64,000 bases of DNA from Cladopsammia gracilis (Eukaryota; Cnidaria; Anthozoa; Scleractinia; Dendrophylliidae): the NCBI GenBank assembly GCA_022457155.1, contig JAJGOT010000196.1, positions 868,001 to 932,000 of the forward strand. The letters run 5' to 3'. Numbering within the stretch: position 1 is the first letter of the stretch; the number at the start of each line of letters is the position of its first letter. The notes below the pieces were generated by a model. It had not been told where the DNA came from, ran no database searches, and saw nothing but the letters and a program-made list of their open reading frames with translations. The translations under genes and the position numbers were made by a program. This document shows positions 33,401 to 61,796 of this stretch, piece after piece.

Positions 33401-35710
33401 TTAAAAGCAAGGGTTCACTACAAGCTTATAGGTATGACACAACTCGCAAAGCGAAGCAAGACTACAGATGATCTTTCATGTACAAGCTTCGATCTATTAA
33501 AGTTTCAGCGTTTTATGACGATTGTATGTTAAACGTAAATTCTGGAGCTCATACATATAATCTGTATCATGACCAGTTAATTTCAAAGCAAAGACCAAAA
33601 TGTAAGCTTAAATTACATTACATGTAAGCTTAAATTGTACCAAGACAAATATCGAATGTAGTCTCATTTTATAATGTTGTCTACGTACAGTTTACATCAT
33701 ATTGCATGTACTATCGAGGACCGATCGAGGTTAATATATTTTGAATGTTTCACCCCAACAAACTATATAATAACACTAAACCACTCACTGTTGTCAAGAA
33801 ATAATCACGTCTTCTAATCGTACATTGCATAAAGTCGAAGCGTTACAGTATTTAATCTCTTACATGTAGCTTACCGTACGCTATATGCTTCGTTCGATTA
33901 ACTAAATAACCGCATTCCGGAATAAAAATAAACACTACAGCGCTTTCTTTATAGTTTGTTGAGACACATTTCCACTATACACATGTAAATCTGGCAAAAC
34001 ATGGTTATAATTCGACAGCTTTCATGTTCTTAATATTCCGGAATACGTTCAATCGAACGCCACCTCAAGCTTCGTACATGATTAAAAAGATTAAAAAAAA
34101 AAGATTGTACTCACATTTGAAACGTCTCGATGTAGACTGTCGTCTCAGATATTCATCTCTTCTGCTGATAAATTGTTGATAAGCCCAATCTAAGATAAAA
34201 CAACGTCCACAAAATCGAAATCTCTAAACGGTTGCTATAATGGCCGCACACAAAATTGTTTGTGCTCACGTGAGATATCTCACGTTATATGTGACGCTAG
34301 ATAGAGAGGACACTGGGAACGAGATTAGCGCGCGAGACTGAGCGGGAATTTCACAATGTTCGTCGTTCTTCAAGTGAAAAAGTGCAGGATTCCATGATAA
34401 GAGCGCCCAAAACAGATATAAGGTATGGCTTTTAATTCTTAAGAAGAGACTTCACTGTAATCATCATTCGTGTATAACTTAATGTTTCCTCTTCGGAGCG
34501 CTCCATAAATTGTCTGTTTACAAAATAATGTGGGCTCTCGCATATAGCTTACATGGAAGCTAAATATATACGAGCGATAGGCCTCGCTACTCTAAACACA
34601 AGCTTTATAGAGCGGAATAGAATACAACATACGCTGAGGTAACTCAGGTATTTGCATTTCGCAGAATAATAATAAGGCATTGCCGTATCGATCGTCATAA
34701 CATTTATGCTTCGATCTACAACGCGTTCGGACACATCGATACTATTACTGAATCCAGTGTTAAGCGAGGAACTATTCCATGGTTTGATTTGACAGCGAGC
34801 TACTGCATTTAATAATACCTGTTCAGAAAATGAATATGTCGGGATAAATGTAAAATAAAATGTATTTTGACGCGCCATTCGACATCGCCTTGCTATTCAA
34901 TTCCGGTTCAATTCCCGGCCCGCAAGTCGGCGTTCGGCTACACGTGTGAGGTTGATAATCAACTTCGGCCTCCGTATATACTGCCATGATGATAAACAAG
35001 GAACTGTATTTGCAAAGACCACCATAACGAATAGAAGCACCGGATTCTGTAGTAAAGGATCAAAGGGGGGGGGGGGGGGGGGGGGCTACGGGTATGTGTC
35101 TATAAAACTCTATAAACGTTTTCATTGCTGCTGCAATTAAAAGGAAAGCCGATATAGCTCTTATTTTGTTCTGTGAGTTTGTCACAAATACGTTTAAAAC
35201 AGTTTTACTGACTTATGGAGGGGGAGGTGAACTTTAAATATATTTTGTGTACATACCTGTAACAAAGTGTTTTTCTCTCAAAATACTAAGAAAATAGTCT
35301 GTTTAAAGTCTGTTTGGAAACAGCTCCTGGTTTCAGTATTTTAAAATCGCCTTTCAAATAGCTCTGACTTGTGAATTCAACTTCAAACATGTTTTAAATA
35401 GACTATTTATGAGCTATTTAGAAGCGTAGTAATGAATGCCCATTTCAAATAGTATTTAAACATCATATTTAAAACGTATTTTTATTTTTTACTTGTTACA
35501 ACTACATTATAAATCGACAACATTTTATGATTCTTTTCCAAACAGTGTTCAAATAGTCTATTTAAAACAATTTAGAGTAACACTTCGGCAGTCATGTTGT
35601 CAAAATAGTGTTCAAATACTCTATTTGAAATGTAGTTTTGGCGACAAATAGCTTACAAATACATGGAAAAACCTATTCGGTTTATTAAATAGCATTTAAC
35701 TATACCTCAA
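30465..35710. repeat. Repeat block C, copy 2
   Basis: Second copy of block C, starting TACTTAATATTTTGAGATGGG and stopping abruptly after TTTAACTATACCTCAA at 35,710, where Polinton sequence begins; copy 1 continues for about 160 bp more. It carries a 236-bp MITE (32,792-33,027) absent from copy 1, and a G run of about 20 at 35,066-35,085. I read it as the right part of an older element split by the 9.9 kb copy. Confidence 0.8.
32792..33027. mobile_element. 236-bp MITE with TTA target duplication and visible empty site
   Basis: Terminal inverted repeats GGGCCATTCCATTTTTTATC (left) and its inverse (right) extend for about 24 bp. TTA flanks both ends (32,789-32,791 and 33,028-33,030). The paralogous position in block C copy 1 (27,587-27,589) has one TTA and no insert. 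A 3-bp TTA target fits PIF/Harbinger-type MITEs. The left half includes a C22 run. Confidence 0.9.
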
Positions 35711-35760
35711 CACAACACAACAAATACTACTAGTAAAAGAAATGAAAAATAAACAGATAT

Positions 35761-36419
35761 TCAAGCTTCATCATCGCTTTCTTGTATCGATAATAACGAT
35801 TCTCGTTGAGGTAACGGTTTGAAATATACCTCATGAACCTTTACTTGAATTGAAACAGCTTTTTCACCAATATAAATACTATCAATTATCAAAGCTAATT
35901 TCACATGACAATATGAATTAAGATAGTCGAGCGGTTCGACTCTTTTATTTCCCTTTGTTTTGAATAGCGTTAAAAATTTATCAGACTTTTCTGAATAATT
36001 GAGTTTAGCATATAATATTGGTGGATTATTTCCTATATTACTTTCCTTGTAATATAAAAATAAAATCTATCAGCTATCTCTACACCACAAGCCTCTTCTA
36101 AGCGTTTGTAACAAAGTTCTTCAAAATTTTCCAAAGAAATATAAAACTCATTTTCTTCCGGTGTCGGTTCATCGTCTTTGGACCATAAACAAACCGGAAT
36201 AGAATAACCAAGAAGCTTATGACTTGCGTCTTCGTTACTTCTTCTCTCGGTCACACCAAAACTGAAAAGAAACGGTGTTTCAATGACTAAAGGACCTTTT
36301 TGATTATCACCATAATCGGCTTGTATTTTAATCCTTTGATAATTGTAAAGGTCGCTTTTTATCGGTTTGCTGAAAATAATATCTTCATTGCGAACATCTG
36401 AAAGAATTGACAGTTGCAT
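35761..36419 (-). pseudogene. DUF5871-like Polinton protein, frameshifted
   Basis: The first 128 codons (36,419 down to 36,033) are open: an IIFSKPIK start, a central ETPFLFSFGVTE, then YSIPVCLW and a PTPEEN segment. This layout resembles DUF5871 proteins of giant viruses and virophages as I remember them. Near 36,045 the frame breaks. A second open segment in another frame runs to TGA at 35,761 and ends with an acidic tail (ESDDEA). I treat both as one broken gene. Its role is unknown; DUF5871 has no firm function. It is the outermost gene on the left, about 50 bp from the junction with block C. Confidence 0.65.
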
Positions 36420-36462: not shown

Positions 36463-36894
36463 CTACCTACAATCCTTGCAACAGCGCTTGTTTTTCCCAT
36501 GAACGCAGATACCGTTTCCACCGCATTCTTTGCAAGAATATTTTACACGGCTGTGTTCACAAATCTGCTTTCCCGAACACTCCTTGCAATAGTATTTGTT
36601 GTTCCAGTGAATACAGATTCCGTTTCCACCGCAATCTTTACAAACATGCCGTTGTCTACCATGTTCGCAAATCCTTGATCCCGAACACTCCTTACAACTG
36701 TATTTATTTTTACCGTGTGGGCAAAACTGTATTGCGGCTTTAGGCGGCTTCGTGGGTTCTTGTCGTTCAACAGCTTGCAAAGCTTCGATCAGTTCGACTT
36801 TCCGCATCAGATGCCATCCTTTAATTTTCTGCTTTTTTGCCATAGCTTTGAGATCTTTTACAGTTACTTTAGGTTTCGATTCTTGCTTTTCCAT
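36463..36894 (-). CDS. SAP-like plus CxH/CxxC zinc-repeat protein
   Basis: A 143-residue protein. Residues 10-42 form a Rho-N/SAP-like helix-extended-helix (VKDLKAMAKK...VELIEAL), a fold that usually binds nucleic acid. Residues 55-143 hold five repeats of about 18 residues of the type ICxHGxxKxxCKxCGG, each offering Cys, His, Cys, Cys as zinc ligands. The third repeat has HW instead of HG, and all ligands are kept in the five. It is intact from ATG to stop. Similar CxHG...CKxC repeats are common in algal and giant-virus proteins. A DNA- or RNA-binding role is likely, but no partner can be named. Confidence 0.75.
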   Translation of the reverse strand: MEKQESKPKVTVKDLKAMAKKQKIKGWHLMRKVELIEALQAVERQEPTKPPKAAIQFCPHGKNKYSCKECSGSRICEHGRQRHVCKDCGGNGICIHWNNKYYCKECSGKQICEHSRVKYSCKECGGNGICVHGKNKRCCKDCR

Positions 36895-37161
36895 TCTTCT
36901 ATTAAGTACTTTTAATTTTTAAGACCAAATTTTTGATTAACAAGCGCTTTCGAGTCGTTTGTTTATCACGACGTTTCTGAGAAATCGGTCTTAATTTATT
37001 CATCTTTTCCGAGAATTGCAGCGTATTAGCATACGTGTTCATCGATGTGTGAAACCTTCTAAAGTGCATGCGCAGCCAGTCAAATTCATAGCGTGACACT
37101 TTACATGTACCACATGTGTGAGCGCGATAACTTCTACCTATATAAAAGACCTTTTCGAACC

Positions 37162-37169
37162 ATATATAA
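37162..37169 (+). promoter_or_regulatory. TATA-like box upstream of structured RNA
   Basis: ATATATAA lies about 30 nt before the G run that opens the structured RNA, the spacing of a TATA box from a Pol II or type 3 Pol III start. Another TATA-like box, TATATAAAAG, lies at 37,139-37,148. I did not identify a proximal sequence element. Confidence 0.35.
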
Positions 37170-37197
37170 TGTTAAGTCTGTAATTCGGTAGAACTCA

Positions 37198-37494
37198 GGG
37201 GGGAGACGGTTGGCCACTGTCAGAACCCTGCTTACGGTTCATGCGATGTCAGACCCACGGGGTAGTAGTGTAGTTGAGTCAGTTGACTACGCTCTGGTGA
37301 ACCAGCCTCGGCCCAACTGATAACAGGGGGGTGCTCAAAGATCTCTTCGGAGAACTTAACATCACCCAGAAGTATAAAATGGGTGACAACCGCTTTGTCA
37401 GCGGGAAAAGTCCTCACTTCGGTGAGGCAAAAGTCCTCACTTCGGTGAGGCACAGAAACAGCCAACCGAGCACCCCCCGACCAGGGTTTTGCAA
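37198..37494 (+). ncRNA. Candidate structured non-coding RNA in the Polinton
   Basis: About 297 nt in a gap between two minus-strand genes. Outer helix: G6 at 37,198-37,203 with C6 at 37,473-37,478, then CGGTTGGC (37,207-37,214) with GCCAACCG (37,461-37,468). Inner hairpins: GAACC/GGTTC (37,223/37,236), ACCC/GGGT (37,253/37,260), TCAGTTG/CAACTGA (37,279/37,314) enclosing CTGGT/ACCAG, TCTC-UUCG-GAGA (37,342), TCACCCA/TGGGTGA (37,362/37,380), CCGCT/AGCGG (37,390/37,400), and CCTCAC-UUCG-GTGAGG twice (37,412 and 37,435). In addition GGGGGGTGCTC (37,326-37,336) pairs perfectly with 37,468-37,478, which could form a pseudoknot or a switch. It is more GC-rich than the AT-rich provirus around it. 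No family was recognised. Confidence 0.7.
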
Positions 37495-37500
37495 TTTTTT
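37495..37500 (+). terminator. T6 tract, possible Pol III terminator
   Basis: Six T residues follow the closing helix of the structured RNA by about 16 nt. Runs of four or more T on the coding strand end Pol III transcription. A shorter T4 lies at 37,487-37,490. This supports plus-strand transcription of the RNA but is only a sequence match. Confidence 0.4.
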
Positions 37501-37548
37501 ATAAAGTGTCACGCAACTGTCACGCGTGACAAGTCACGCAACTCGTGG

Positions 37549-38040
37549 TCATACTATGAACTTTTTCTCGTATCTTTTTTCAATTCGGCTATTTATTGTT
37601 GGACAAAGATCAATTATAACATCATCAATCAACCTCATATCGCTCACAAACAAATCGTGGTTAAAATGTTTTCCTCGCAGACAAGAACGTAAGTCAACCA
37701 AAACTTTCTGATATGTTGTATGTGCGAATTTACTCATTTCAATCCTTCGATTATAATTTTTATAATCGGTGAATGTTTTTATTAACAAACCTGCGCCGGA
37801 GATAACCCCTAGTATAACAGGGTTTAGTGTAACTCCGCCGGCGATTGTGCCGACTGTGATAAGAGATGAACTACTCAATTTACAGAATAGATTCATCCGT
37901 TTGAGACGTTTAAAAGTCTTTTTGTAACACCACCACTTCTTGTGATAAAATCTGTAAAGAGCCTTAATCTCCGATAATCTCGTCTCATCGATCGAAGTAT
38001 CGATGTGATTAAATGTGAAAATATCTTGTTTGTGTTTCAT
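37549..38040 (-). CDS. Polinton membrane-hairpin protein of unknown function
   Basis: An intact 163-residue protein. Residues 1-50 are charged and helical (YRFYHKKWWCYKKTFKRLKR). Residues 55-90 form a long Gly/Val/Ile-rich hydrophobic stretch (ITVGTIAGGVTLNPVILGVI) that could be one or two membrane segments with a central NP turn. The C-terminal half is helical with scattered Cys. Proteins with this layout are frequent accessory proteins of invertebrate Polintons (from memory). It may be a virion or host-membrane protein; no enzymatic motif is visible. Confidence 0.6.
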   Translation of the reverse strand: MKHKQDIFTFNHIDTSIDETRLSEIKALYRFYHKKWWCYKKTFKRLKRMNLFCKLSSSSLITVGTIAGGVTLNPVILGVISGAGLLIKTFTDYKNYNRRIEMSKFAHTTYQKVLVDLRSCLRGKHFNHDLFVSDMRLIDDVIIDLCPTINSRIEKRYEKKFIV

Positions 38041-38686: not shown

Positions 38687-40494
38687 TTATGTCGTCTCAA
38701 GCCACAGACTTACCAAACATTTATCGATGGTAGTGCCCTGTAAACTTTTTACTCTCACACTAAATTCATCACTTTTTAACAGAGCGATATCGCTAGTCAA
38801 GTGACAGACCTGTTTCTTACCACCTTCTCCCCTTCCTACTATATTATTTATCAACACGGCAATAGGAGGGTATGTTTCGAGCGTATCGAGAATGTTAACG
38901 CAACATTTTACTATTTTACACTTAACCGGAACCATAACTTCTGGCTCTCCTGAAAATAGAGCAAACATCTGATTCGCAGTTCTCTTGTAAAGACCGTTAA
39001 TTACAAACGCACCACCGCTGGGACTTGGTGAATTGATAATTGAGCAATTGTTCATATCCAGATCGGTCTGCATAACCATTTTCCTACCCTCCAAAATATA
39101 AGGAGTATCGTAAACACTGGCCGGTACATCAGAGCGGTGTCCTTTTATTCCGTAAATTACAAGGTAAGCTTGAGCTTGCGAAGGCGATGTTGGCGAGCCG
39201 CTACATTTTAAATCGACCATAATATATTCCGGCGGTGAAATATGCCACTTATTTAAATTGATAATGCTTCTAGCGTAATTCGTAAAGTTTTTTGTCGATT
39301 GTTTATTTATATTGATAGAAGTCGATTCAACATCGACGCTGACACCTCTCATCGTAGGCGGGATAAATTCAATACAAACGGTATATTCACCTTCTGGTAA
39401 TTTATACATATTAAAACCGATTCTTGAGGCGTAGCTATTTAACGGGTGTTTGTGCAATAAAAGACTGTAGACTTTTTTGTTTAACGTAGCGGCGACTCCA
39501 CCAAATCGACTATACCGGTGACGGTTATATCATGTTCGGAAGAGCCTTCGTCAACATTTTCCATTAGGTACCTAAAATCATCTTTCAAATTTGTCGAGGT
39601 GGTGATATGCGATTCGTCAACATATTTTTTGAGCTTTTCTTCTAATTCTATCGTGTGAATTACCACATTCCCTATCTTGAGATCAAGATTTTTATCAGCA
39701 CCATCAACATAAGATTTATTACATGCGTCGGAACTATTTTGCGGATCTTCTAAATTTATAATCTTATGGTTTGACATATCGAAATCTTCACTGGGCGGAT
39801 TACTCAATTTACCGGCGATCAGTTGATCCACGTATCTTTTATTGGCCCCTTGGTCGGCAACCGTCGGGTCCTTTACATTATAAACCGTATTGTTTCCCAT
39901 ATCCAAACTAGTTTCCATCGGAAACGTCTCTTTGCGAGATAAGAAAATATTCCTAACATCGTTGTAAGAGACAAGATTGTTATAATTTGCCCCTAAATCG
40001 TGATAAGTCTGTTGTTTCGATTGGACAACATTGAAACGTTCTTTCAGATCGATATTTTTCACGACCTCATGCGTTGGTTCAGGAGCGTTAGAATGAAATT
40101 TTTTCAGAGTTACCATATTGACAGCGCATAAATCGTTATCTTCCTCCGTGTCCATGTTTGTGATTAGTTTTCTGTTCATATCGATCTCTCCGGGAAGAAT
40201 CAATCTTTTTCATCGAAGATCTAAATCACCGGTCATATGAGTCGATCCATCAACAAGAATAACATCTGTCGGATTTGGTTTTGTTGATAGCGCATTTTCC
40301 ATCTGATGTTTTGTTATCGCATCATCATTATCAACTCCTTCACCAACATTTACAAGACGTTTTTGTTGAATATCGTCATTGTTATTGACATCTAATTTCA
40401 AACCGGTTCCTTGTTGTACTTGTTGATTAAAATTTTTTATATATTCAGATATTTCATAATTAGTGAATCTTCTGATATTATTAAAAATACCCAT
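38687..40494 (-). pseudogene. Phage tail-like fibre/attachment protein, broken in three
   Basis: Three adjacent minus-strand pieces (40,494-40,210; 40,203-39,481; 39,457-38,687) look like one fibre gene of about 600 codons. The first two share a frame and are separated only by TGA at 40,210-40,212; a frameshift lies between 39,481 and 39,457. The shaft has repeats of the phage tail-fibre type, such as LDMGNNTVYNVKDP...ANKRYVD and FDMSNHKIINLEDP...CNKSYVD. The last 256 codons form a beta-rich, Cys-containing head with a SAQA-like Ser/Pro stretch. Such proteins usually form trimers at virion vertices and bind host cells. The start MGIFNNIRRFTN is probably the capsid anchor. Confidence 0.7.
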
Positions 40495-40525
40495 ACTCTG
40501 TTATTTTATACGAAGTTATAATTTT

Positions 40526-41161
40526 TTAAAAAGTCTCATCAAAGTTTTTAGTAACACTTTTCTTTTCTTTGTCTAAAAATAAGAATTCATATGGACCAAG
40601 TTTATCAAAAAGAACCGGATCTATTAGATTTTCTTGCGCAATCAGATTTAAATGTTTTTTAGTCGTTGGTGGATATAAAATCATGTGGGAACAGTTCTGT
40701 CGGAGTTTTTGGGGAACATCGTAGTAGGACTGGGATAGATAGATCGGGGAAATTTTATGATGTCGACCATCTGTATAATGATTGGCAATTTTGTTTTGAA
40801 CTGCTTGGGGAGCGTTAATAAGATCATCAAAAACCACCACTTTTCTATTATCGATCGGATAGTCTGTTGTGTCCATAATATCATCTTCTCCAAGAAGTTC
40901 TAAAATATCATATCCAACTCTTTGACTAGCGTTTTCCATTAATTTTTGCAAGTCTTGAATTTTATCCTGATGTTGATTTGGTGAGTATAGATAAATCTTA
41001 TCATAAAAAATTAGCGGCTTTCTAAGAATATGCATTAAGGTGTTTGTTTTTCCACATCGAGTTTGACCTGTTATTAACATACGAAAATCTTCATTAAGAA
41101 AATCATTCAGTGAACGATTATTATCGTTATTTTTTATTACATCATAATTTGGTATTTTCAT
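40526..41161 (-). CDS. FtsK/A32-type genome-packaging ATPase
   Basis: An intact 211-residue P-loop ATPase of the HerA-FtsK class, as used by Polintons, adintoviruses and giant viruses to pump DNA into capsids. Walker A is ITGQTRCGKTN (about residues 30-40), Walker B is KVVVFDDL (about 107-114), and the family motif LSQSYYDVP follows with its sensor Gln. The size is typical of the compact Polinton enzyme. It is the first gene of the minus-strand block, diverging from the coiled-coil structural protein across an AT-rich promoter of about 120 bp. Confidence 0.92.
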   Translation of the reverse strand: MKIPNYDVIKNNDNNRSLNDFLNEDFRMLITGQTRCGKTNTLMHILRKPLIFYDKIYLYSPNQHQDKIQDLQKLMENASQRVGYDILELLGEDDIMDTTDYPIDNRKVVVFDDLINAPQAVQNKIANHYTDGRHHKISPIYLSQSYYDVPQKLRQNCSHMILYPPTTKKHLNLIAQENLIDPVLFDKLGPYEFLFLDKEKKSVTKNFDETF

Positions 41162-43710: not shown

Positions 43711-45009
43711 ATGAGTTTTAGAAATCCAGAATTGGTCAAACGATATGAATACGTGGCCTTCGATTTGGAAACACCGCTAATCGATAATGTCGCAAATGAT
43801 AATAGACAAGTTACGGATAATTTTCGATTCACAGTTGATAATTCATCAGAAGCAAATCCGATCGATTGGTATAATGCATATTTGGAAGTAGATTTCAAAC
43901 TTGTTACACTTGCTGATAGTGCAACCGGTATAACAGCAGGACCAAATAATGGTAATGAAGATTGTACTACAACTAATGGTCATACATTTATAAAACAGAT
44001 ACAAGTTGAATGCAGCGGTATAACAGTTTATAATAACTCAAGAGCTAATGAAACATCAAACGTACTTTCCCTCTTAAAATATACAAAAAGTTATGCAGAT
44101 ACGATCGGTAAAGATCAATTTTTATATTTAGATTCATCCACAGGAACAACAGAAGCACGACCAGCTCAAGCGTTATATAATGAAGGTTTTGCTAGACGAA
44201 AAATTTTAACAGATGCTGCAGCTGTTAACAAAATATCGATTCCTCTAAATTTATACAGTTATTTTGCAGCTTTCAAAAATAATCTTCACCCAAATATCAA
44301 GACAAATCTTCTTATAGAACTTGAAAGCGACAACAATATAATTTTCAGAAAAGGAGCTGCTCCAGATAGTAAAGTAATTCTAACAAAATTAAGATTGTGG
44401 TGTCCAAAAATTATTTTTAATGGATTAGGTATGAAACAATATCTTGAAAATTATTTAAAACCCAAAAAATGGACTTATTTGAGAGAACATACCGCAATAT
44501 TTCAAACAACCTCTATAAATAGCTCCTTTCGAATAAGTACAGGTATTAGGAGACCGAGACATGTTTTCATTTGGGTTGTTCCCGAAGCAAGTTATAGTAA
44601 TCAGGAACAAAATATATTTACTTTCAAAACATTTAGAATTGGAGCAAATAATCGATATTTTTCTAGAGCACATTTGGTAATAAATAATAGCATCCAATAT
44701 CCTCAATTAGAATTGACATCAGATGAGGAGTCAAGACTTTACAGAGCTTTGTTATCCTACAGTTCCGCTTACAATGACTTTTTAAGCGGAACAATAATAG
44801 ACCGAGCAAATTTCAGAAATCTTTTTGGAATTATATACTTTAATCTTAGAAACCAAGAAGAAGACGTAAAAGATGGTGTAGTTTCACTTACTTTTAATTA
44901 TGAATTAAACGGAGCAAATCCAACAAATTATAGATTAAATGCTTTAGTTTTACACGAAAAAGAAATAGAGTTATACACATCATCTGGAAAATTATTAATA
45001 AAAGCGTAA
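43711..45009 (+). CDS. Double-jelly-roll major capsid protein
   Basis: An intact 432-residue protein. The order of motifs fits Polinton/adintovirus major capsids: N-terminal FDLETPL, DNFRFTVDN, a first jelly-roll with DWYNAYLEVDF, a middle NGLGMKQYLENYLKPKKWTYLREHT, and a second jelly-roll with RRPRHVFIWVVPEASYSNQEQN. The C-terminus has SLTFNYELNGANPTNYRLNALVLHEK. The trimer would form the pseudo-hexagonal capsomer. The length is slightly below common members but no domain is missing. It is one of the few undamaged virion genes, with no stop or frameshift. Confidence 0.88.
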   Translation: MSFRNPELVKRYEYVAFDLETPLIDNVANDNRQVTDNFRFTVDNSSEANPIDWYNAYLEVDFKLVTLADSATGITAGPNNGNEDCTTTNGHTFIKQIQVECSGITVYNNSRANETSNVLSLLKYTKSYADTIGKDQFLYLDSSTGTTEARPAQALYNEGFARRKILTDAAAVNKISIPLNLYSYFAAFKNNLHPNIKTNLLIELESDNNIIFRKGAAPDSKVILTKLRLWCPKIIFNGLGMKQYLENYLKPKKWTYLREHTAIFQTTSINSSFRISTGIRRPRHVFIWVVPEASYSNQEQNIFTFKTFRIGANNRYFSRAHLVINNSIQYPQLELTSDEESRLYRALLSYSSAYNDFLSGTIIDRANFRNLFGIIYFNLRNQEEDVKDGVVSLTFNYELNGANPTNYRLNALVLHEKEIELYTSSGKLLIKA

Positions 45010-46474: not shown

Positions 46475-47086
46475 ATGGCTATGGAAGGTCTAACGATGCA
46501 TGCGTTACCTTTGTTAGGAAAGAAAGCTGTTGAAATGGGTCGTTATGGGGCAAGTGAGCTGCTGAGAAATAAAAATATGCAAACCAAGGCGTTGGATTTC
46601 GCTCTTGACAAAGCAAAACCGTTTCTTGAAAATACTGCCTCCGACATGTTAAATCAGCTAAGTACTAAGATTAGACCCGATAAAAAATATAAAACGGATC
46701 GAGCTGATTTAGACGGGAGCGGAATCGATGTTCATAAACTGATCGGTAAGCTTCCGAAAGCAAAAGGCGGTTGGACATTACCAGGGCATAAATACACAGG
46801 ACCATACAATGACCTGGATACACAATTAAGATATGATCCGGAAACAGGTAAAATACTGGAGATCTACGAACAGCCGACGGGTAAAACGGATGCCATAGCG
46901 ATGCAGCATGACGTCGATTATTCTGTGTGCGCAAATAAACCGGAACCGCGTAAATGTAAAAACGATGCGGATAGAAAAATGGTGAAAGCTTTGGATAGCG
47001 TGCCCTATTATGATCGACAATGGGGTCACTGGTTAGCTAGAAATACTATCGACGTAAAACAAAAACTTGGGTTGGGAAACGGATAA
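46475..47086 (+). CDS. Phospholipase A2-like virion protein
   Basis: A 203-residue frame. The C-terminal half has the PLA2 fold motifs used by parvoviral VP1 and Polinton capsid-associated proteins: a calcium loop PGHKYTGPYNDLD (about residues 107-119), the catalytic pair in AIAMQHDVDYSVC (His-Asp), and a following NDADRKM Asp. Cys residues flank the active site. The N-terminal half is helical and Ala/Leu-rich. The enzyme would breach endosomal membranes during entry. The open frame extends upstream of the chosen ATG to about 46,424, so a fusion to the preceding zinc ribbon is possible. Confidence 0.8.
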   Translation: MAMEGLTMHALPLLGKKAVEMGRYGASELLRNKNMQTKALDFALDKAKPFLENTASDMLNQLSTKIRPDKKYKTDRADLDGSGIDVHKLIGKLPKAKGGWTLPGHKYTGPYNDLDTQLRYDPETGKILEIYEQPTGKTDAIAMQHDVDYSVCANKPEPRKCKNDADRKMVKALDSVPYYDRQWGHWLARNTIDVKQKLGLGNG

Positions 47087-47226: not shown

Positions 47227-48054
47227 ATGCAGAAATTAAGCAGGTGGAATAAGGGATATCAATATCTTCTCATGGTGTTAGATGTTTTCAGTAAATACGG
47301 TTGGATTGTACCGCTGAAGAATAAAAAGGGAGAGAGTGTCGCAGAAGCGTTTAAATCGCTATTCAAGAAAGGAAGAAAACTGAAAATGCTGTGGGTGGAT
47401 AAGGGTAAAGAGTATTACAACAAGAATATGAAAGAACTGTTGGATAAAAATAAGATTGTAATGTACTCAACAGAGAATGAAGAAAAATCTAGTGTTTGTG
47501 AAAGATGGAACCGTACGATAAAAGAGAAAATGTTTAAACAATTTACCGTTCAAAACAATACAAAATATCTTGACGCGTTGCCGAGGCTTGTGGTAGAATA
47601 CAATAATTCAAAACACCGAAGCATCGGCATGACGCCTGTGGAAGCGTCGAAGAAAAAGAACGAAAGTGCTGTTTACTTAAATCTCTACGGTAAGATGAAA
47701 CGTACACAACCTCGACGATCGAAATTTAAAGTTGGGGATAAAGTTCGAATATCAAAATACAAACGCCCTGTTTTCGATAAAGGTTACACACCGAATTGGA
47801 CTGAAGAGATTTTTACCGTCGATAAGATTCAATACACTAACCCTATAACTTATAAACTGAAAGATGAGCTTGGTGAGGAGATAACGGGTTCTTTTTATAA
47901 GGAAGAGCTGCAGAAGGCTAAGCAGACCATCTTTCGAATTGAGAAAGTGATTCGGCGAGACGCTCGAAAAGGTAAAGCGTTAGTGAAGTGGAGAGGGTAT
48001 AGCGATAAATTCAACTCTTGGGTAGATCTAAAAGATCTGAAAGATCTGCGGTGA
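47227..48054 (+). CDS. Retroviral-type integrase with chromodomain
   Basis: An rve-fold DDE integrase that would join Polinton ends to host DNA. From the ATG it has 275 residues, but the first catalytic Asp (WCSDLVEM, nt 47,215-47,217) lies upstream of that ATG in the same open frame. That frame is open back to about 47,039 and begins inside the PLA2 gene, so the true start is missing or non-ATG. The other acidic residues are D58 (LWVDKG) and E92 (SVCERWNR). The C-terminus (about residues 238-275: FRIEKVIRRD...LVKWRGYSDKFNSWV) is a chromodomain, which can steer integration to marked chromatin. Confidence 0.9.
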   Translation: MQKLSRWNKGYQYLLMVLDVFSKYGWIVPLKNKKGESVAEAFKSLFKKGRKLKMLWVDKGKEYYNKNMKELLDKNKIVMYSTENEEKSSVCERWNRTIKEKMFKQFTVQNNTKYLDALPRLVVEYNNSKHRSIGMTPVEASKKKNESAVYLNLYGKMKRTQPRRSKFKVGDKVRISKYKRPVFDKGYTPNWTEEIFTVDKIQYTNPITYKLKDELGEEITGSFYKEELQKAKQTIFRIEKVIRRDARKGKALVKWRGYSDKFNSWVDLKDLKDLR

Positions 48055-49438: not shown

Positions 49439-52400
49439 ATGCCAGCGATCAAAAAGAGTATAATCACAATCAAAAATAATGACTCAATCTGTCTTGCACG
49501 AGCAATAGTGACGGCTCGTGCAAACATAAATAAATGTAGATGGACAGCATCTCAGTTGAAAAACGGGTTCAATAGTTCAAGAAAACTGCAGAAAGACGAA
49601 GCTATCAAACTTCATAAAGAAGCTGGAGTCGAAATTAATGAGGAAACCGGTTCTACCCTCGAAGATGTAAAGAGATTCGCGGAACATCTTAAGGTTCAGA
49701 TAAACATTGTAAACGGTGATCAGTTCAATGATCTGATTTTCACTACTGAAAATGAGCACGATGGACAGATGATATACCTTTACAAAAACAAAAACCACTT
49801 CGACGTTATCACAAGTATGCCAGCGTTCTTGAGTAAAGATTATTATTGTCACACCTGCAAAAAACCGTATACAAAACGCGATTGTCATAGATGCCCCGCA
49901 AAGTGTACAGCATGCTTCAAGTACTTTCCACACGGAGTGAAAAAGTGCTCTTATCCACCAATTCCATGCGATAAGTGCAATAGGTCTTTCTTTGGAGTAG
50001 AGTGTTTTCTGGAGCATCAACGTGAACGATCCTTAGGGATTAAAAACGATACTGTGTGTAAAAAAGTAGGTAAATGTTTGAAATGCGAGCGTATAATTAC
50101 TGGTGGCCTAAAGAATCACATCTGCGGATATTCGGAGTGTAATAATTGTGGGGAGTACTGTGATATGCATAAACATCTTTGTTTCATGTCTAAAACGAAA
50201 TGTAAGGGTGGAAAATGTGAAGGTTACGGATGTAGTCCTGAAAATTTGTGTTACCCTTGTCAGACAAGAACTGATAAATACATGTTCTATGATTTCGAAG
50301 CAGTTCAGGAGACCGGTGTTCATGAGGTCAATTTAGTCGTCTGTCACGATTTTTATGGAAATAAAAATTCATTTGAAACGCTCGACGAATTTTGTAAATT
50401 TATTTTTACCAAGGAGTATGAAGGGTATACCTTCATAGCTCACAATGCAAAAAGTTACGATGCTCAGTTTATTCGAAATTGGTGTATAGAGAACAGAGTG
50501 AAACCCGATATTATTTACAACGGAACAAAGATTATGTCTATGAAGGCTGAGGGTGCTAGATTTATTGATTCTATAAACTTTAACGCTGGTCCACTATCAT
50601 CATTCCCAAAGACATTTGGTTTGACAGAGTTGAAAAAGGGGTATTTTCCACATTTATTCAACAAAAAGTGTAACCAAAACTATGTAGGGCCGATTCCTAG
50701 TAAGAAATACTATTGTTATGATCAGATGAAATCTTCAGCGAGAAAGGAATTCCTAATATGGTACCAAGCGCGGGTTGATGAAAACTATGTGTTTGACATG
50801 AAGAAGGAGCTGAGAGAGTACTGTGATAGTGATGTAGACATCCTCAGAAGAGGTATGTTGATTTTTCGAGAACAGTATATCGAGTTAGGTAAAATCGACC
50901 CTCTTCAATATATAACCATTGCTTCTGTATGCATGACCATGTACAGAAGTAACCACATGCCTTGTGAAAAGATCGGTGTTGTAAAGGAAATTACACGTGG
51001 AGAGACCTACAGTAAAAGTAGCATCGCATGGTTAGATTGGATTTCTCAGAGAGATGACGTCAACATAAAACACGCTCTGAGCGGTGGTGAAGAAACTTTA
51101 CCAGATATCGGAAAGGTTGACGGTTTCTGTGGGAATACGGTCTACGAATTTCAAGGATGTTTTTGGCACGGTTGTGAGAAGTGTTATACATGCGACACAA
51201 TCAACACAAAAAATCAGATGGATATGTTAACTCTAAGAAAGAGGACGGTAGCGAAAAACGATAAAATTAGAGCTGCCGGGTATGAACTGGTTGAGGTTTA
51301 CGAATGTGAACTGAAAAAAGATAAAAAGTTTAGTAAATTTCTTAAAACGTGGAATCGGGAATTTGTAGGACCTCTTAATCCTAGGGACGCATTTTTTGGT
51401 GGACGAACAAATGTAACAAAACCGACCTACACATTCAAAAAAGGCGAGAAAGGTAAATACGTCGACTTTGTTAGTTTATATTCAACGGTTCAATTCTACA
51501 AGGATTATCCAGTAGGTCATCCTACAAAGATATTTGATCCTCCTCAAGAGTACGATAAGGAGTGGTTTGGTATTGTAAAATGTAAAGTTTTACCTCCAAG
51601 AAGTCTTTATCACCCTGTGTTGCCGGTAAAAATAAAATGCGATAAGGCTGAAAAGCTGCTATTTCCGCTCTGTAGAGTGTGCGCTGAAAATAAGATTCAG
51701 AAATGTACACATACAGATGATGAACGATCATTCATCGGAACATGGTGCACAAATGAATTGAATGTGGCGATTTGTAAAGGGTACAAGGTACTAAACATAT
51801 ACGAGGTGTGGCATTTCGAGGCTAAAACCGCTAACCTTTTCAAGAGTTATGTAAGAAAATTCATGAAAATCAAGATGGAATCGAGTGAACTGAAGACCGG
51901 TCAAGGTTGTACATATAAGAGTGTTGATGAGTACCGGTCAATTGTTGAATCAAAGTTAGGAATCGAGCTTGGCGAAATTAAATACAATCCCGGAAGGAGG
52001 GCAATCTCAAAGTTGTCTCTGTGTAGTTTATGGGGAAAATTTGGTCAGCGTAATAACTTGAATCAGACTGTGTACGTCACTGAACCACCTAAATTTTACA
52101 AGATCTTGCTAGATGAAAGCATAGACGATCTGAACATTCAATTCTTAAACGAAGAGATGGTTGAAATGACTTACAACTTGAAAGACCAGTTCGTTGACAA
52201 TAGTAATAACACAAACATATTTATTGCTGCTTTCACAACCAGCCACGCTAGAATGATGCTGTATGAAGTGTTAGACAAACTCGGTGATCAGGTTCTCGGT
52301 TTTGACACCGACAGTTGTTGGTATATCGAGCGTGAGGGGGGACAGCGTATCGAAACAGGTGACAGCCTCGGCGATCTAACCGATGAGTTAAACGGACATT

Positions 52401-52714
52401 ATATTACGAATTGGTGCGGTTCTGGTCCAAAATCATACAGTTATAGTACAAGTGATGGGAAGATGGAATGTAAGGTCAAAGGTTTCACTCTGAATCACGA
52501 AAATAGTCAATATATAAATCAAAAAACCATGAGACAAATCATCGAAGGTCAAAAGCAACGAATAACAACTGTTAACGAACAAGCGATAACTCGGGATCCC
52601 TCTACAAAACAGATTGTAAATAGGTACCAGGAAAAAGACCTTCGGATGTGTTACGATAAACGGTGTATGGTGAAGACTGAATCGGGTATCGAGACGTTTC
52701 CATACGGATATTAA
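49439..52714 (+). CDS. Protein-primed DNA polymerase B
   Basis: A 1,091-residue B-family polymerase, the replicative enzyme of Polintons. Exonuclease motifs are FYDFEAV (about residue 283), HNAKSYDAQF (about 338) and YCDSDVDIL (about 460). Palm motifs are FVSLYSTVQFY (A), KLSLCSLWGKFGQ (B) and GFDTDSCWY (C); motif A has Ser-Thr where Ser-Leu-Tyr-Pro is usual, and motif B has Cys for Asn. The N-terminus has an OTU-like pattern (NNDSICLARA ... HFDVITSMP) followed by a series of CxxC fingers. An inserted FQGCFWHGCEKCY block resembles a Vsr-type nuclease domain. It ends naturally at FPYGY. Confidence 0.92.
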   Translation: MPAIKKSIITIKNNDSICLARAIVTARANINKCRWTASQLKNGFNSSRKLQKDEAIKLHKEAGVEINEETGSTLEDVKRFAEHLKVQINIVNGDQFNDLIFTTENEHDGQMIYLYKNKNHFDVITSMPAFLSKDYYCHTCKKPYTKRDCHRCPAKCTACFKYFPHGVKKCSYPPIPCDKCNRSFFGVECFLEHQRERSLGIKNDTVCKKVGKCLKCERIITGGLKNHICGYSECNNCGEYCDMHKHLCFMSKTKCKGGKCEGYGCSPENLCYPCQTRTDKYMFYDFEAVQETGVHEVNLVVCHDFYGNKNSFETLDEFCKFIFTKEYEGYTFIAHNAKSYDAQFIRNWCIENRVKPDIIYNGTKIMSMKAEGARFIDSINFNAGPLSSFPKTFGLTELKKGYFPHLFNKKCNQNYVGPIPSKKYYCYDQMKSSARKEFLIWYQARVDENYVFDMKKELREYCDSDVDILRRGMLIFREQYIELGKIDPLQYITIASVCMTMYRSNHMPCEKIGVVKEITRGETYSKSSIAWLDWISQRDDVNIKHALSGGEETLPDIGKVDGFCGNTVYEFQGCFWHGCEKCYTCDTINTKNQMDMLTLRKRTVAKNDKIRAAGYELVEVYECELKKDKKFSKFLKTWNREFVGPLNPRDAFFGGRTNVTKPTYTFKKGEKGKYVDFVSLYSTVQFYKDYPVGHPTKIFDPPQEYDKEWFGIVKCKVLPPRSLYHPVLPVKIKCDKAEKLLFPLCRVCAENKIQKCTHTDDERSFIGTWCTNELNVAICKGYKVLNIYEVWHFEAKTANLFKSYVRKFMKIKMESSELKTGQGCTYKSVDEYRSIVESKLGIELGEIKYNPGRRAISKLSLCSLWGKFGQRNNLNQTVYVTEPPKFYKILLDESIDDLNIQFLNEEMVEMTYNLKDQFVDNSNNTNIFIAAFTTSHARMMLYEVLDKLGDQVLGFDTDSCWYIEREGGQRIETGDSLGDLTDELNGHYITNWCGSGPKSYSYSTSDGKMECKVKGFTLNHENSQYINQKTMRQIIEGQKQRITTVNEQAITRDPSTKQIVNRYQEKDLRMCYDKRCMVKTESGIETFPYGY

Positions 52715-59151: not shown

Positions 59152-60835
59152 GTTGTCCACTCTCTATTACAAAACTCCTATACACCGTATTCATAAATGG
59201 CGTCCGCGTGGAACGGCCTGGTTTCGATCAAGATCAAAACAAAAATGGCGTCCACTAGTAGGGATTCTACTAGTGTGATTCTGACCGAAGACGATATTCC
59301 AGGAGCTTCTTTGGCTGGAAGAAATCCTTCCTCGCTAAATAACGAAGAGCTAAAGTTTTGGTTGCGATGTTGAGGCGATTCGTTGAAGGGACTTAAGACG
59401 AAAGCACAGCTCATTAAACGGTAAGCATGCATGTGGTTCGTGTGTAAATCGCTTCGCAAGATCACTCCAAATTTTGTGACTGTAAAATTTAGATTTTTTT
59501 CTTAACTATATTGCAGAGTCGATGAGTATATTAAAAGTGGAAGGGATAAAATGATGGTTGATCCTGATCCGGATAAAATCTACACGAAAAGAAAGGCAAG
59601 GGTTTCGAATCTTCCAAGAGACGCCGCTCCTGTCACAACAACAAGTGTGAAATATCCAAGTGAAGGCTGGGGAAAGTCACTAGAAAGGATGCCTTCTTTC
59701 ACAAGAGCCGAAATGAACCAGCACATCGCAAATTCTGGGAAAAGAGTAGCAAATACTGAGCATCACAGCATTCCGACTAATTTAAGGAAAGCGAAAACGT
59801 TTTTGAAGGATGAGTACTTAAAAGAAATTGAGGCTAACAGCGATCAAAGGTACTTTTATATGAAATCAAAGTGCTATCACAGTTTCAAGAAGAGTGAGGC
59901 TCCCCATGTTCTTCGTTTCGCTCTGTGCATCGTTTCAGGCGAAGTCATTCATGCCAATTGTTCATGCAAAGCTGGCAAAGTAGGATACTGTAATCACATT
60001 CTTGCATTGATGTTCAAGGCATGCAAGTTTACTTTATTTGACAGTGAAAGCACTGATGACTTGTGCCAGGATGATGATGAACAGGAAGATCTTGCGTGTA
60101 CCTCTCAGCTCCAGAAGTGGCACAAAAAGGGTCGTGGTGATAAGATATTTGCCCAGTCAGTAATGGAAGTCATCATTTCTAAAACAAAACTTGATGAAAC
60201 CAGGAGCAGAGAAGGAGTGAAATGCCTGTTGTATGAAGCAAGGGCTAACCCCAAACATAATGTTGAAGCTGAAATGATGTTGAAAAAGGACCTTCAGCAA
60301 ATAAACCCACAAATGGGTTTATCGCTGATGGCAAGAGAAGATTTGTCGCAAAACAATTGTGTGGAAACCAAGTTTGGTGAAAGTCAAATTGGCTCATTCT
60401 GCAGCTATCAATTGACTCATACCGAAGCAAACTTTGTGGCCACTGTTGACATTTCAACAATTCCAAGACAAGAAGACAGTAGAAAAACTGAACTTACTTA
60501 TCCAAGGTTTCCGTTAAACTCGGGTAGTGATTTTGTGTGGCCTGACAACCTGAACGATGCTGAAAAGGCACTTGTTAGATCTCTTGTAGTTGATGAAACC
60601 ATGATCAGCAACATTGAAGAATCCACAAGGGATCAATCATTGTCAGATCGGTGGAAGAAGGAACGGAAATTTGCAGCTGACCTGATAAATCCCAAGGCAT
60701 TCACCTCAAGGTATGTTGAGCATGGCTTGAAACATGAACCAATTGCCATCGAAACATATGAAAAAATTATGTTCACACGGAAGACCCCGGTAAAAGTTGT
60801 CAAGAGTGGTTTTGAAATGACATATATATGAAATA

Positions 60836-61010
60836 AATCATATATGAACTGCGGAAATGAAATCAAATGAAGAATGATCCTCGCAGTTGTGGACGCAATT
60901 TAAGCAATTGCGAAAAGAAGCATGAAAAAAATTCAGGACTTCAACGGGGTTCGAACCCGTGACCTCGCGATACCGGTGCGATACTCTACCAACTGAGCTA
61001 TGAGAGAGAG
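60836..61010 (-). repeat. tRNA-derived SINE (first copy, inverted)
   Basis: Minus-strand copy with a 5' tRNA-like head near 61,010-60,935, the same body, and the tail CATATATGATTTATTTCATATA. Its head has one change in the anticodon stem (TATCGC for CATCGC) relative to the others. Together with the plus copy starting near 61,016 it makes a DNA palindrome likely to be unstable. Confidence 0.75.
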
Positions 61011-61241
61011 AGAGAGTTGGTAGAGCATCGCACCGGTATCGCGAGGTCACGGGTTCGAACCCCGTTGAAGTCCTGATTTTTTTTTTCAGGCTTATTTTCG
61101 CAATTGCTTAAATTGCGTCCACAACTGCGAGGATCATTCTTCATTTGATTTCATTTCCGCAGTTCATATATGATTTATTTCATATATATGTCATTTCACA
61201 CTCATTCCTTTCACGGGAACATATGAACCTACAATTGACCT

Positions 61242-61256
<15 letters not shown>

Positions 61257-61276
<20 letters not shown>

Positions 61277-61400
61277 AGAGCATCGCACCGGTATCGCGAG
61301 GTCACGGGTTCGAACCCCGTTGAAGTCCTGAATTTTTTTCACGCTTCTTTTCGTAATTGCTTAAATTGCGTCCACAACAGCGAGGATCATTCTTCATTTG
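61257..61400 (+). repeat. tRNA-derived SINE (third copy)
   Basis: The head at 61,257-61,328 folds as a tRNA: acceptor GGCTTCA/TGAAGTC, D arm with A box TAGCTCAGTTGG, T arm with B box GGTTCGAACCC, and an anticodon position reading GGT (Thr). Position 33 is C rather than U, and 31-39 is mismatched, so it is not a working tRNA. The body AATTGCTTAAATTGCGTCC and GCGAGGATCATTCTTCATTTG recurs in all three copies. I recall this SINE type from coral genomes. Confidence 0.75.
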
Positions 61401-61796
61401 AAGAGTGGTTTTGTTGTCTGTCTGGACATGCCATTTCTGGGAGGCTCACCAGATGGCAGAGTTGTCGATTTTGGATGTCAGAATCATTTTGGACTTGCTG
61501 AAGTGAAGTGCCCAGAGACAAAAAATCAAGTCACTCCACTAGATGCTTGCCAGGATCCTAATTTCTTTTGTGAGGCTGTAAATGGACATTGTAAACTTAA
61601 AAGGAACCATGCCTACTTTACTCAAGTGCAAGGCCAGATGGGTGTTAGTGGAGCCTCTTGGTGTGACTTCATTGTCTACACAAAGAAGGGCATTTCAGTG
61701 GAGAGAATCCCTTTTGATGCTGCCTGCTGGGCAGGTTTGAAGCAGAAGCTTTGCACTTATTACTTTACACATTTTATCAAAACTGCAGCAACTTAG

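Follow-up and report, generated by a model that had tools for sequence, protein, structure and literature searches.

Adenovirus VA RNAs are about 160 nt long, and phage phi29, which has a packaging ATPase, uses a structured packaging RNA, the pRNA. Among the viral RNA polymerase III (Pol III) promoters tabulated in PMC8223928, that of VA1 is type 2 and internal; those of the TMERs of murine gammaherpesvirus 68 and the EBERs of Epstein-Barr virus are also type 2, with upstream additions in the EBERs. Polinton-like viruses carry noncoding RNAs, e.g., tRNAs and group I introns, which were found with Rfam and ARAGORN and therefore belong to known families (PMC12220804). In the literature covered, open-access with few subscription journals, we found no Pol III, VA-like, or noncoding RNA of the kind described below for a Polinton, adintovirus, or virophage.

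Here we analyze a 64,000-nucleotide stretch of Cladopsammia gracilis DNA (the window), in which a preliminary description had placed an undescribed structured RNA, probably made by Pol III, inside a Polinton. Position, conservation, compensated changes, and a U6-like promoter support that proposal. The structured RNA, predicted at about 37,174–37,498, is real, although the first reading had drawn the borders, promoter, and fold differently. Judging from sequence, the stretch is quite probably a type 3 Pol III gene for a noncoding RNA of the Polinton provirus.

The likeness to adenovirus VA RNA is that a DNA virus with a double-jelly-roll capsid carries a structured noncoding RNA, predicted here to be made by Pol III and to end in a T run. 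However, the Polinton RNA is about twice as long, and the RNA region has no Rfam match that would indicate homology to VA RNA in sequence or structure. Of the VA-like character first proposed, Pol III synthesis stands as a prediction and the promoter type does not: with the consensus forms used for the A and B boxes, including GWTCRANNC and GGTTCGANTCC, the RNA contains no B box at up to one mismatch to the former or two to the latter, and one exact A box match, at 37266, with near-matches beside it. The phi29 pRNA is a working analogy only, a structured RNA together with a packaging ATPase, and has no Rfam match here. The EBERs and TMERs are likewise viral Pol III RNAs, and the EBERs also use upstream elements. 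In contrast to the type 2 promoters tabulated for them and for VA1 (PMC8223928), the Polinton RNA has what looks like an external promoter of the U6 type, and it has no Rfam match to EBERs or TMERs. It differs from the noncoding RNAs of Polinton-like viruses (PMC12220804) in that it matches no Rfam family.

The provirus and the copies of the RNA

By its predicted genes, the element is a Polinton of the adintovirus kind, an adintovirus-like provirus. The + strand encodes a DNA polymerase B at 49439–52714 (PF03175, E 1.7e-46) and a retroviral-type integrase with a chromodomain at 47227–48054 (rve E 1.3e-7); the rve score of 32.3 bits is slightly below the cut-off of 32.6, and the chromodomain is above its own cut-off. 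The Polinton's packaging ATPase, of the A32 type, lies on the − strand at 40526–41161 (PF04665, 3e-11) and has 62–78% identity to 26 selected relatives. A probable major capsid protein of 432 aa (43711–45009, + strand) has no Pfam match of its own. Its identity is 81% to P0121, a protein with a match to the double jelly-roll family PF21738 over the cut-off, and 79% to P0129, which is slightly under that cut-off. The double jelly-roll assignment of the capsid is therefore indirect, through the close relative P0121. The RNA lies between two ORFs on the − strand, one of 143 aa on its left (36463–36894, Rho_N-like, below the cut-off) and one of 163 aa on its right (37549–38040, no Pfam family). 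Rho_N-like proteins are encoded in the Polinton, as are a phospholipase A2-like domain protein at 46475–47086 and a DUF2738 protein at 36033–36419.

The right-end sequence in the window recurs in other copies to the left of the RNA, inverted relative to it. On the window's own left side, homology to other copies ends at 35,730; at 35400–35730, the other copies continue leftward to an inverted terminal-like sequence. Therefore, the left side of the window copy seems to have undergone truncation or rearrangement. The region 7400–35710 contains large direct duplications, the longest 91–98% identical, with four 109-aa ORFs of equal size and two 127-aa ORFs. A tRNA-Thr gene at 61257–61328 lies amid repeated and inverted sequence (60813–61401), within which a tRNA-like match is present on the opposite strand at 60941–61003. 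Relatives of the element were not found in IMG/VR by exact patterns or by polymerase and integrase queries; ATPase alignment gave one remote IMG/VR locus, at 24% identity, with no RNA match up to E 1. A phage collection yielded no relatives, and one exact pattern searched in prokaryote genomes had no match.

The predicted Pol III transcript, a structured noncoding RNA of ~325 nt, spans 37174–37498 on the + strand, its start being placed from U6 spacing and from the onset of invariance. The structured stretch as first delimited thus stands, and 37198 does not hold as its beginning, the transcript probably running from near 37174. The GC-richness ascribed to the stretch is confirmed (52%, compared with 36% and 38% in the flanks), the three C(UUCG)G hairpins are present at 37338–37357, 37410–37428, and 37433–37451, and the longest ATG-initiated frame is 40 aa, consistent with the statement that no ORF explains the sequence. 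Folding energy compared with shuffles had been set beforehand as a test that could refute the RNA, and an excess is present: 37198–37500 folds at −117.6 kcal/mol (z −3.99), and the stretch from the inferred start, 37174–37498, has z −5.23, with 0/100 shuffles as good in either case. However, the complement of 37198–37500 is also structured (−110.4 kcal/mol, z −3.12), and in a scan of the element at 20 shuffles per window, nine of the 239 windows score below the best RNA window, so energy by itself is suggestive only.

The Rfam check proposed at the outset matched no known family in the RNA region: none reaches the gathering score, and none is convincing below it. The motifs AGAACCC.GCTTA, GGAAAAGTCC, and ACAGAAA...ACCG resemble those of bacterial RNase P. 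This candidate was dropped, as small-window Rfam scans up to E 10 did not match RNase P. A short inverted repeat around the unit, GCGTGACACTTTA/TAAAGTGTCACGC, was rejected as part of it; because several copies have only one half or neither, it is taken as belonging to the variable flanking repeats.

Copies are numerous in the genome (878 Mb, 1469 contigs): a search with the RNA gave 40 scored places from 649 candidates, with identities of 91–100%. In 20 of these 40, up to 4 kb was read on each side. In 20/20 copies, the RNA is flanked by Polinton sequence on both sides and occupies one and the same position within the element, which bears out the location inside a Polinton; in L020 the right-hand homology extends only to 37783, and L024 has a long insert on the left. 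On the context of these 20 flanked copies, a SINE or MITE, dispersing independently of a larger element, is rejected.

As a choice by RNA similarity was to be avoided, copies were also sought via the adjacent gene 37549–38040. This search scored 150 of 2337 candidates, of which 40 were picked, omitting loci among the 40 best RNA matches. The RNA is present in 31 of the 40 (14 in the first batch of 20 and 17 in the second), including two defective carriers, L061 without the 5′ part and L096 with an internal deletion. It is missing in nine (L049, L051, L057, L063, L065, L066, L082, L089, and L095). By eye, another coding-like stretch seems to occupy its place in L049, L051, and L065, and other DNA does so in L057, L063, and L066. 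L057 and L063 also carry tandem units with a palindrome, e.g., TGTGCCACATCGTGGCAC, upstream of the gene; these are possibly another structured element.

The upstream region and host U6 genes

Host U6 genes were sought with RF00026, which matched 11 places, nine of them over the cut-off, and the upstream DNA of these nine was read. Six of the nine U6-like loci (L070–L075) have CCAC positioned at −63 or −64, and L068, L069, and L076 have no PSE-like box. The genome's two top-scoring U6 matches, L068 and L069, do not differ anywhere in the DNA read, its upstream part included, and may be dispersed copies. L070 resembles a complete U6 followed by a T run, and L071–L075 have altered U6 3′ parts, so that a PSE matrix from these loci rests on few sound genes. 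The matrix was made from five of the six host sites and no Polinton sequence, with L075, near-identical to L074, omitted.

On the + strand upstream of the Polinton RNA, a PSE-like box, TGTACCACATGTGTGAGCGCGA, occupies 37106–37127, with its CCAC at −64 of the inferred start, and a TATA box, TATATAA, occupies 37139–37145, 29 nt past CCAC. With the matrix, 37106 comes fourth out of 127,958 window positions. PSE and TATA at U6 spacing occur together at this site alone in the 64 kb, both strands included, and the combination is matched by 1 of 20,000 shuffles of 37050–37190. The U6 spacing places the start near 37173–37176, exactly at the onset of invariance. In the 53-copy set described below, the PSE is intact in 47 copies, has one mismatch in L044 and L053, is partial in L086, and is missing in L018, L060, and L064; the TATA box is kept in 51 of the 53. 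In L024, outside this set, the PSE is missing or partial. A further motif, GCATGCG at 37066–37072 (+ strand), is a possible distal element, and CATG[CT]G also occurs at −92 to −123 upstream of the six host U6-like loci with a PSE-like box; the evidence is weak, as the distance is not constant. Between the TATA box and the start, many copies contain a palindrome, AGTTCGATCGAACT (37146–37162).

At the other end, the T6 that had been noted downstream is present at 37495–37500 (+ strand) and is the predicted Pol III terminator; a diverged subfamily has TTTCTTT or TTTCCTT instead. Right after the terminator, at 37506–37545, some copies contain GTGTCACGCAA-like short repeats in variable number.

The upstream DNA therefore looks like a U6-like promoter of type 3. 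The locus shares with host U6 snRNA genes a PSE-like box at −63/−64, a TATA box ~30 nt past CCAC, and a T-run terminator. However, the Polinton RNA is no U6 RNA, the window containing no RF00026 match over the cut-off, and it is about three times longer. In accordance, the Pol III reading of the preliminary description probably holds, by way of a U6-like PSE and TATA, and the promoter as drawn there does not. In particular, the TATA-like box named there is probably not the working TATA, and the one at 37139–37145, ~35 nt before the inferred start, is preferred.

From these features we infer that the RNA is transcribed, and by Pol III. The host PSE-binding complex would bind the PSE (37106–37127), and TFIIIB, which likewise serves U6, would bind the TATA box. 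Together they would recruit Pol III, which would initiate near 37174 and terminate in the T run. The product would be an RNA of ~325 nt in three domains: a hairpin domain at the 5′ end, a central one, and one of several hairpins at the 3′ end.

Fold and compensated changes

All three domains lie on the + strand. The 5′ domain (37176–37254) forms one long, imperfect hairpin, in which the pairs 37186:37245 and 37201:37226 are compensated. The central domain (37258–37310) consists of the helix 37258–37262/37306–37310 and two hairpins, is mostly invariant, and is therefore little tested; its loop 37278–37283 is a candidate for pairing with 37316–37321. The 3′ domain (37326–37478) is closed by GGGGGGUGCUC/GAGCACCCCCC and includes the UUCG hairpin 37338–37357, a candidate pseudoknot at 37360–37384, a hairpin at 37389–37405 with compensated pairs 37389:37405 and 37392:37402, and tandem UUCG hairpin units at 37410–37451, two in the window copy. 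A fold from 37174 gains a closing stem, GUCUG/CAGAC. Two helices were rejected. A terminal stem, 37188–37196/37484–37492, has no compensated change and one pair that is unpaired in 6 of 28 copies, and a second register of the hairpin 37389–37405 (UGACAA/UUGUCA) was ruled out by reading the alignment.

The copies compared are 53 distinct ones: the window, 17 of the 39 RNA-similarity copies, 29 of the 31 carriers located through the adjacent gene, and six found via an L061 query. Counted by regular expression, the UUCG units number 2, 1, 3, and 0 in 30, 15, 7, and 1 of them, respectively. This range and the several stable hairpins are what a small-RNA precursor (miRNA-like) or an RNAi decoy might offer. 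However, the predicted fold has no long regular duplex, and several loops and junctions are invariant even though the unit number varies; we give this explanation very little weight.

In a structure of 98 pairs, which is partly tuned because it was chosen in part after the alignment was seen, 98.1% of the cells are paired across the 53 copies, and both sides have changed in 36 cells. This count replaces an earlier one on 28 copies (17 compensated cells, compared with 5.2 ± 1.8 in shuffles). Column shuffles of the 98-pair structure give 11.6 ± 2.5 compensated cells, with 0/500 reaching 36, and slid controls give 0–2. In a tree-aware null, the inferred changes are re-placed at random on a FastTree tree, ignoring recombination; under it, compensated cells number 7.6 ± 5.4 and the paired share is 94.3 ± 1.1%, both observed values being reached in 0/500, and the observed covariation score is reached by 5/500. 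Doubly changed pairs (4/98) are not in excess over column shuffles (3.8; 370/500), nor is the number of pair types (456/500).

At the level of single pairs in the 53 copies, 37186:37245 alternates between CG and UA, with UG in four copies and no pairing in two, and 37201:37226 shows a GC/AU exchange. The pair 37389:37405 is CG or AU, but of the 46 copies that have bases at these positions, 17 leave it unpaired. The pair 37392:37402, GC or AU, with GU in one copy and no pairing in two, is weak alone, its covariation being reached in 55/500. Compensatory changes, which the preliminary description had proposed to look for in other cnidarian Polintons and adintoviruses, are thus present among copies within this one genome and on a partly tuned structure. 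The enclosing 8+6 bp helix of that description fares differently: the complementarity exists, but there are 0 compensated cells in the 53 copies, and unpaired cells occur at 6 of its 14 pairs, e.g., in 11/53 and 4/53 copies at two of them.

An untuned fold of the window alone has 20 compensated cells (23/500) and 97.3% paired (0/500), and its covariation score is without excess (220/500). The opposite-strand window fold has 8 compensated cells (145/500), and its pairing is also above the null (0/500). Wobble cells, 58 G-U in 21 pairs vs 28 A-C in 18, favor the + strand mildly. These strand comparisons bear on the idea that the stretch is a DNA-level element, i.e., a conserved replication, recombination, or packaging signal with an incidental RNA fold. 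That both strands fold better than shuffles fits such a signal, as does the equal conservation of unpaired and paired bases reported below. However, the stretch is bracketed by a U6-like promoter and a T run, there are compensated changes, and the window fold of the + strand has more compensated cells (20) than that of the − strand (8). We consider a DNA-level element highly improbable.

Divergence, recombination, and possible roles

In the window and the 39 RNA-similarity copies, diversity per 25-base bin is 0.002–0.054 within 37180–37504, rises to 0.50 in the 50 bases after 37504, and is 0.06–0.55 elsewhere within 400 bases per side. The bin of the PSE has 0.084, and the next bin, toward the TATA box, has 0.274.

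In eight far copies (L016, L019, L021–L023, L025, L026, and L028), themselves found by RNA similarity, the RNA differs by 2.2–2.8%, and both flanking genes have dS 0.66–0.78 and dN 0.10–0.20. In the same copies, genes further right (38687–41161) have dS of only 0.13–0.28; synonymous divergence in this far subfamily thus falls from ~0.7 past 38560, which is a sign of recombination between element lineages. The gene-anchored copies (29 of 31 measured) have RNA identities to the window of 90.6–98.8% and gene protein identities of 81–98%, and the two do not run in parallel. The gene is 98% and the RNA 92.4% identical in L048, compared with 83% and 97.1% in L087, and genes of 83–84% accompany RNAs of 96.4–97.3% in several copies (e.g., L078, L080, L087, and L090). 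This disagreement between gene and RNA kinship indicates that recombination contributes and lowers the divergence of the RNA, so that the constraint is not exactly quantifiable.

One could go further and suppose that recent gene conversion or recombination has spread a single version of the RNA, in which case its low divergence would be no sign of function. Such an exchange would account for the discordant gene and RNA similarities (L048, L078, L080, L087, and L090 among them) and for a far-copy dS of ~0.7 beside the RNA and 0.13–0.28 in genes past 38,560. However, compensated changes and pairing exceed the tree-aware null, although that null ignores recombination, and the PSE bin is conserved beside a variable bin toward the TATA box. 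We regard recent exchange as an unlikely main cause. The sequence comparisons support conservation of the RNA beyond that of the neighboring genes, with recombination contributing.

The same profile bears on whether the RNA is a captured Pol III repeat, either a host snRNA-like gene or a SINE-like unit riding in an ancestral Polinton. The conservation border is sharp at the 3′ side, the DNA up- and downstream of the unit is variable, and the promoter is of the host type, all as expected for a captured unit. However, the 20 flanked copies (from the 40 scored places and 649 candidates) share one position in the element, an Rfam match is lacking, and low divergence relative to the flanking genes together with compensated changes is unexpected for a passive passenger. 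A captured repeat is thus improbable.

In the 28-copy alignment, 80% of unpaired and 75.5% of paired positions are invariant. Conservation is thus as strong in unpaired bases as in paired ones, and recognition of specific sequence accounts for this better than a simple double-strand decoy does. Our guess for a role, a tentative one drawn by analogy and less than evenly probable, is that the RNA would act in trans and, as VA or EBER RNAs do, bind a specific protein of the host or the virus. By another analogy, with the phi29 pRNA, the RNA may instead be a viral life-cycle RNA, part of an RNP for DNA replication, capsid assembly, or packaging. The conservation of unpaired bases, the A32-type packaging ATPase and DNA polymerase B encoded by the element, and the persistence of the RNA across gene lineages of one element family are consistent with such a role. 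On the other hand, nine of the 40 gene-anchored copies, which may be dead, do not have the RNA, and no Rfam family is matched. We place a life-cycle role clearly behind a trans-acting one and consider it rather unlikely. Less likely again is a broader form, in which the RNA would represent a new viral class: a type 3 Pol III RNA of Polintons, made from a copy of the host U6-type promoter, with conserved unpaired sequence and an RNP essential to the virus for replication or packaging, possibly found in the Polintons of other animals as well.

If the preferred reading, a type 3 Pol III gene of the provirus, is true, this would be, as far as the open-access literature covered shows, the first case in Polinton-like viruses of a new family of RNA gene that is conserved and served by Pol III. 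It would also use a U6-type promoter, compared with type 2 in the adenovirus, murine gammaherpesvirus 68, and Epstein-Barr virus cases tabulated in PMC8223928. The RNA offers a direct handle on expression of the provirus, traceable in existing small-RNA data, and the Polinton RNA is a natural comparison for the adenovirus VA RNAs.
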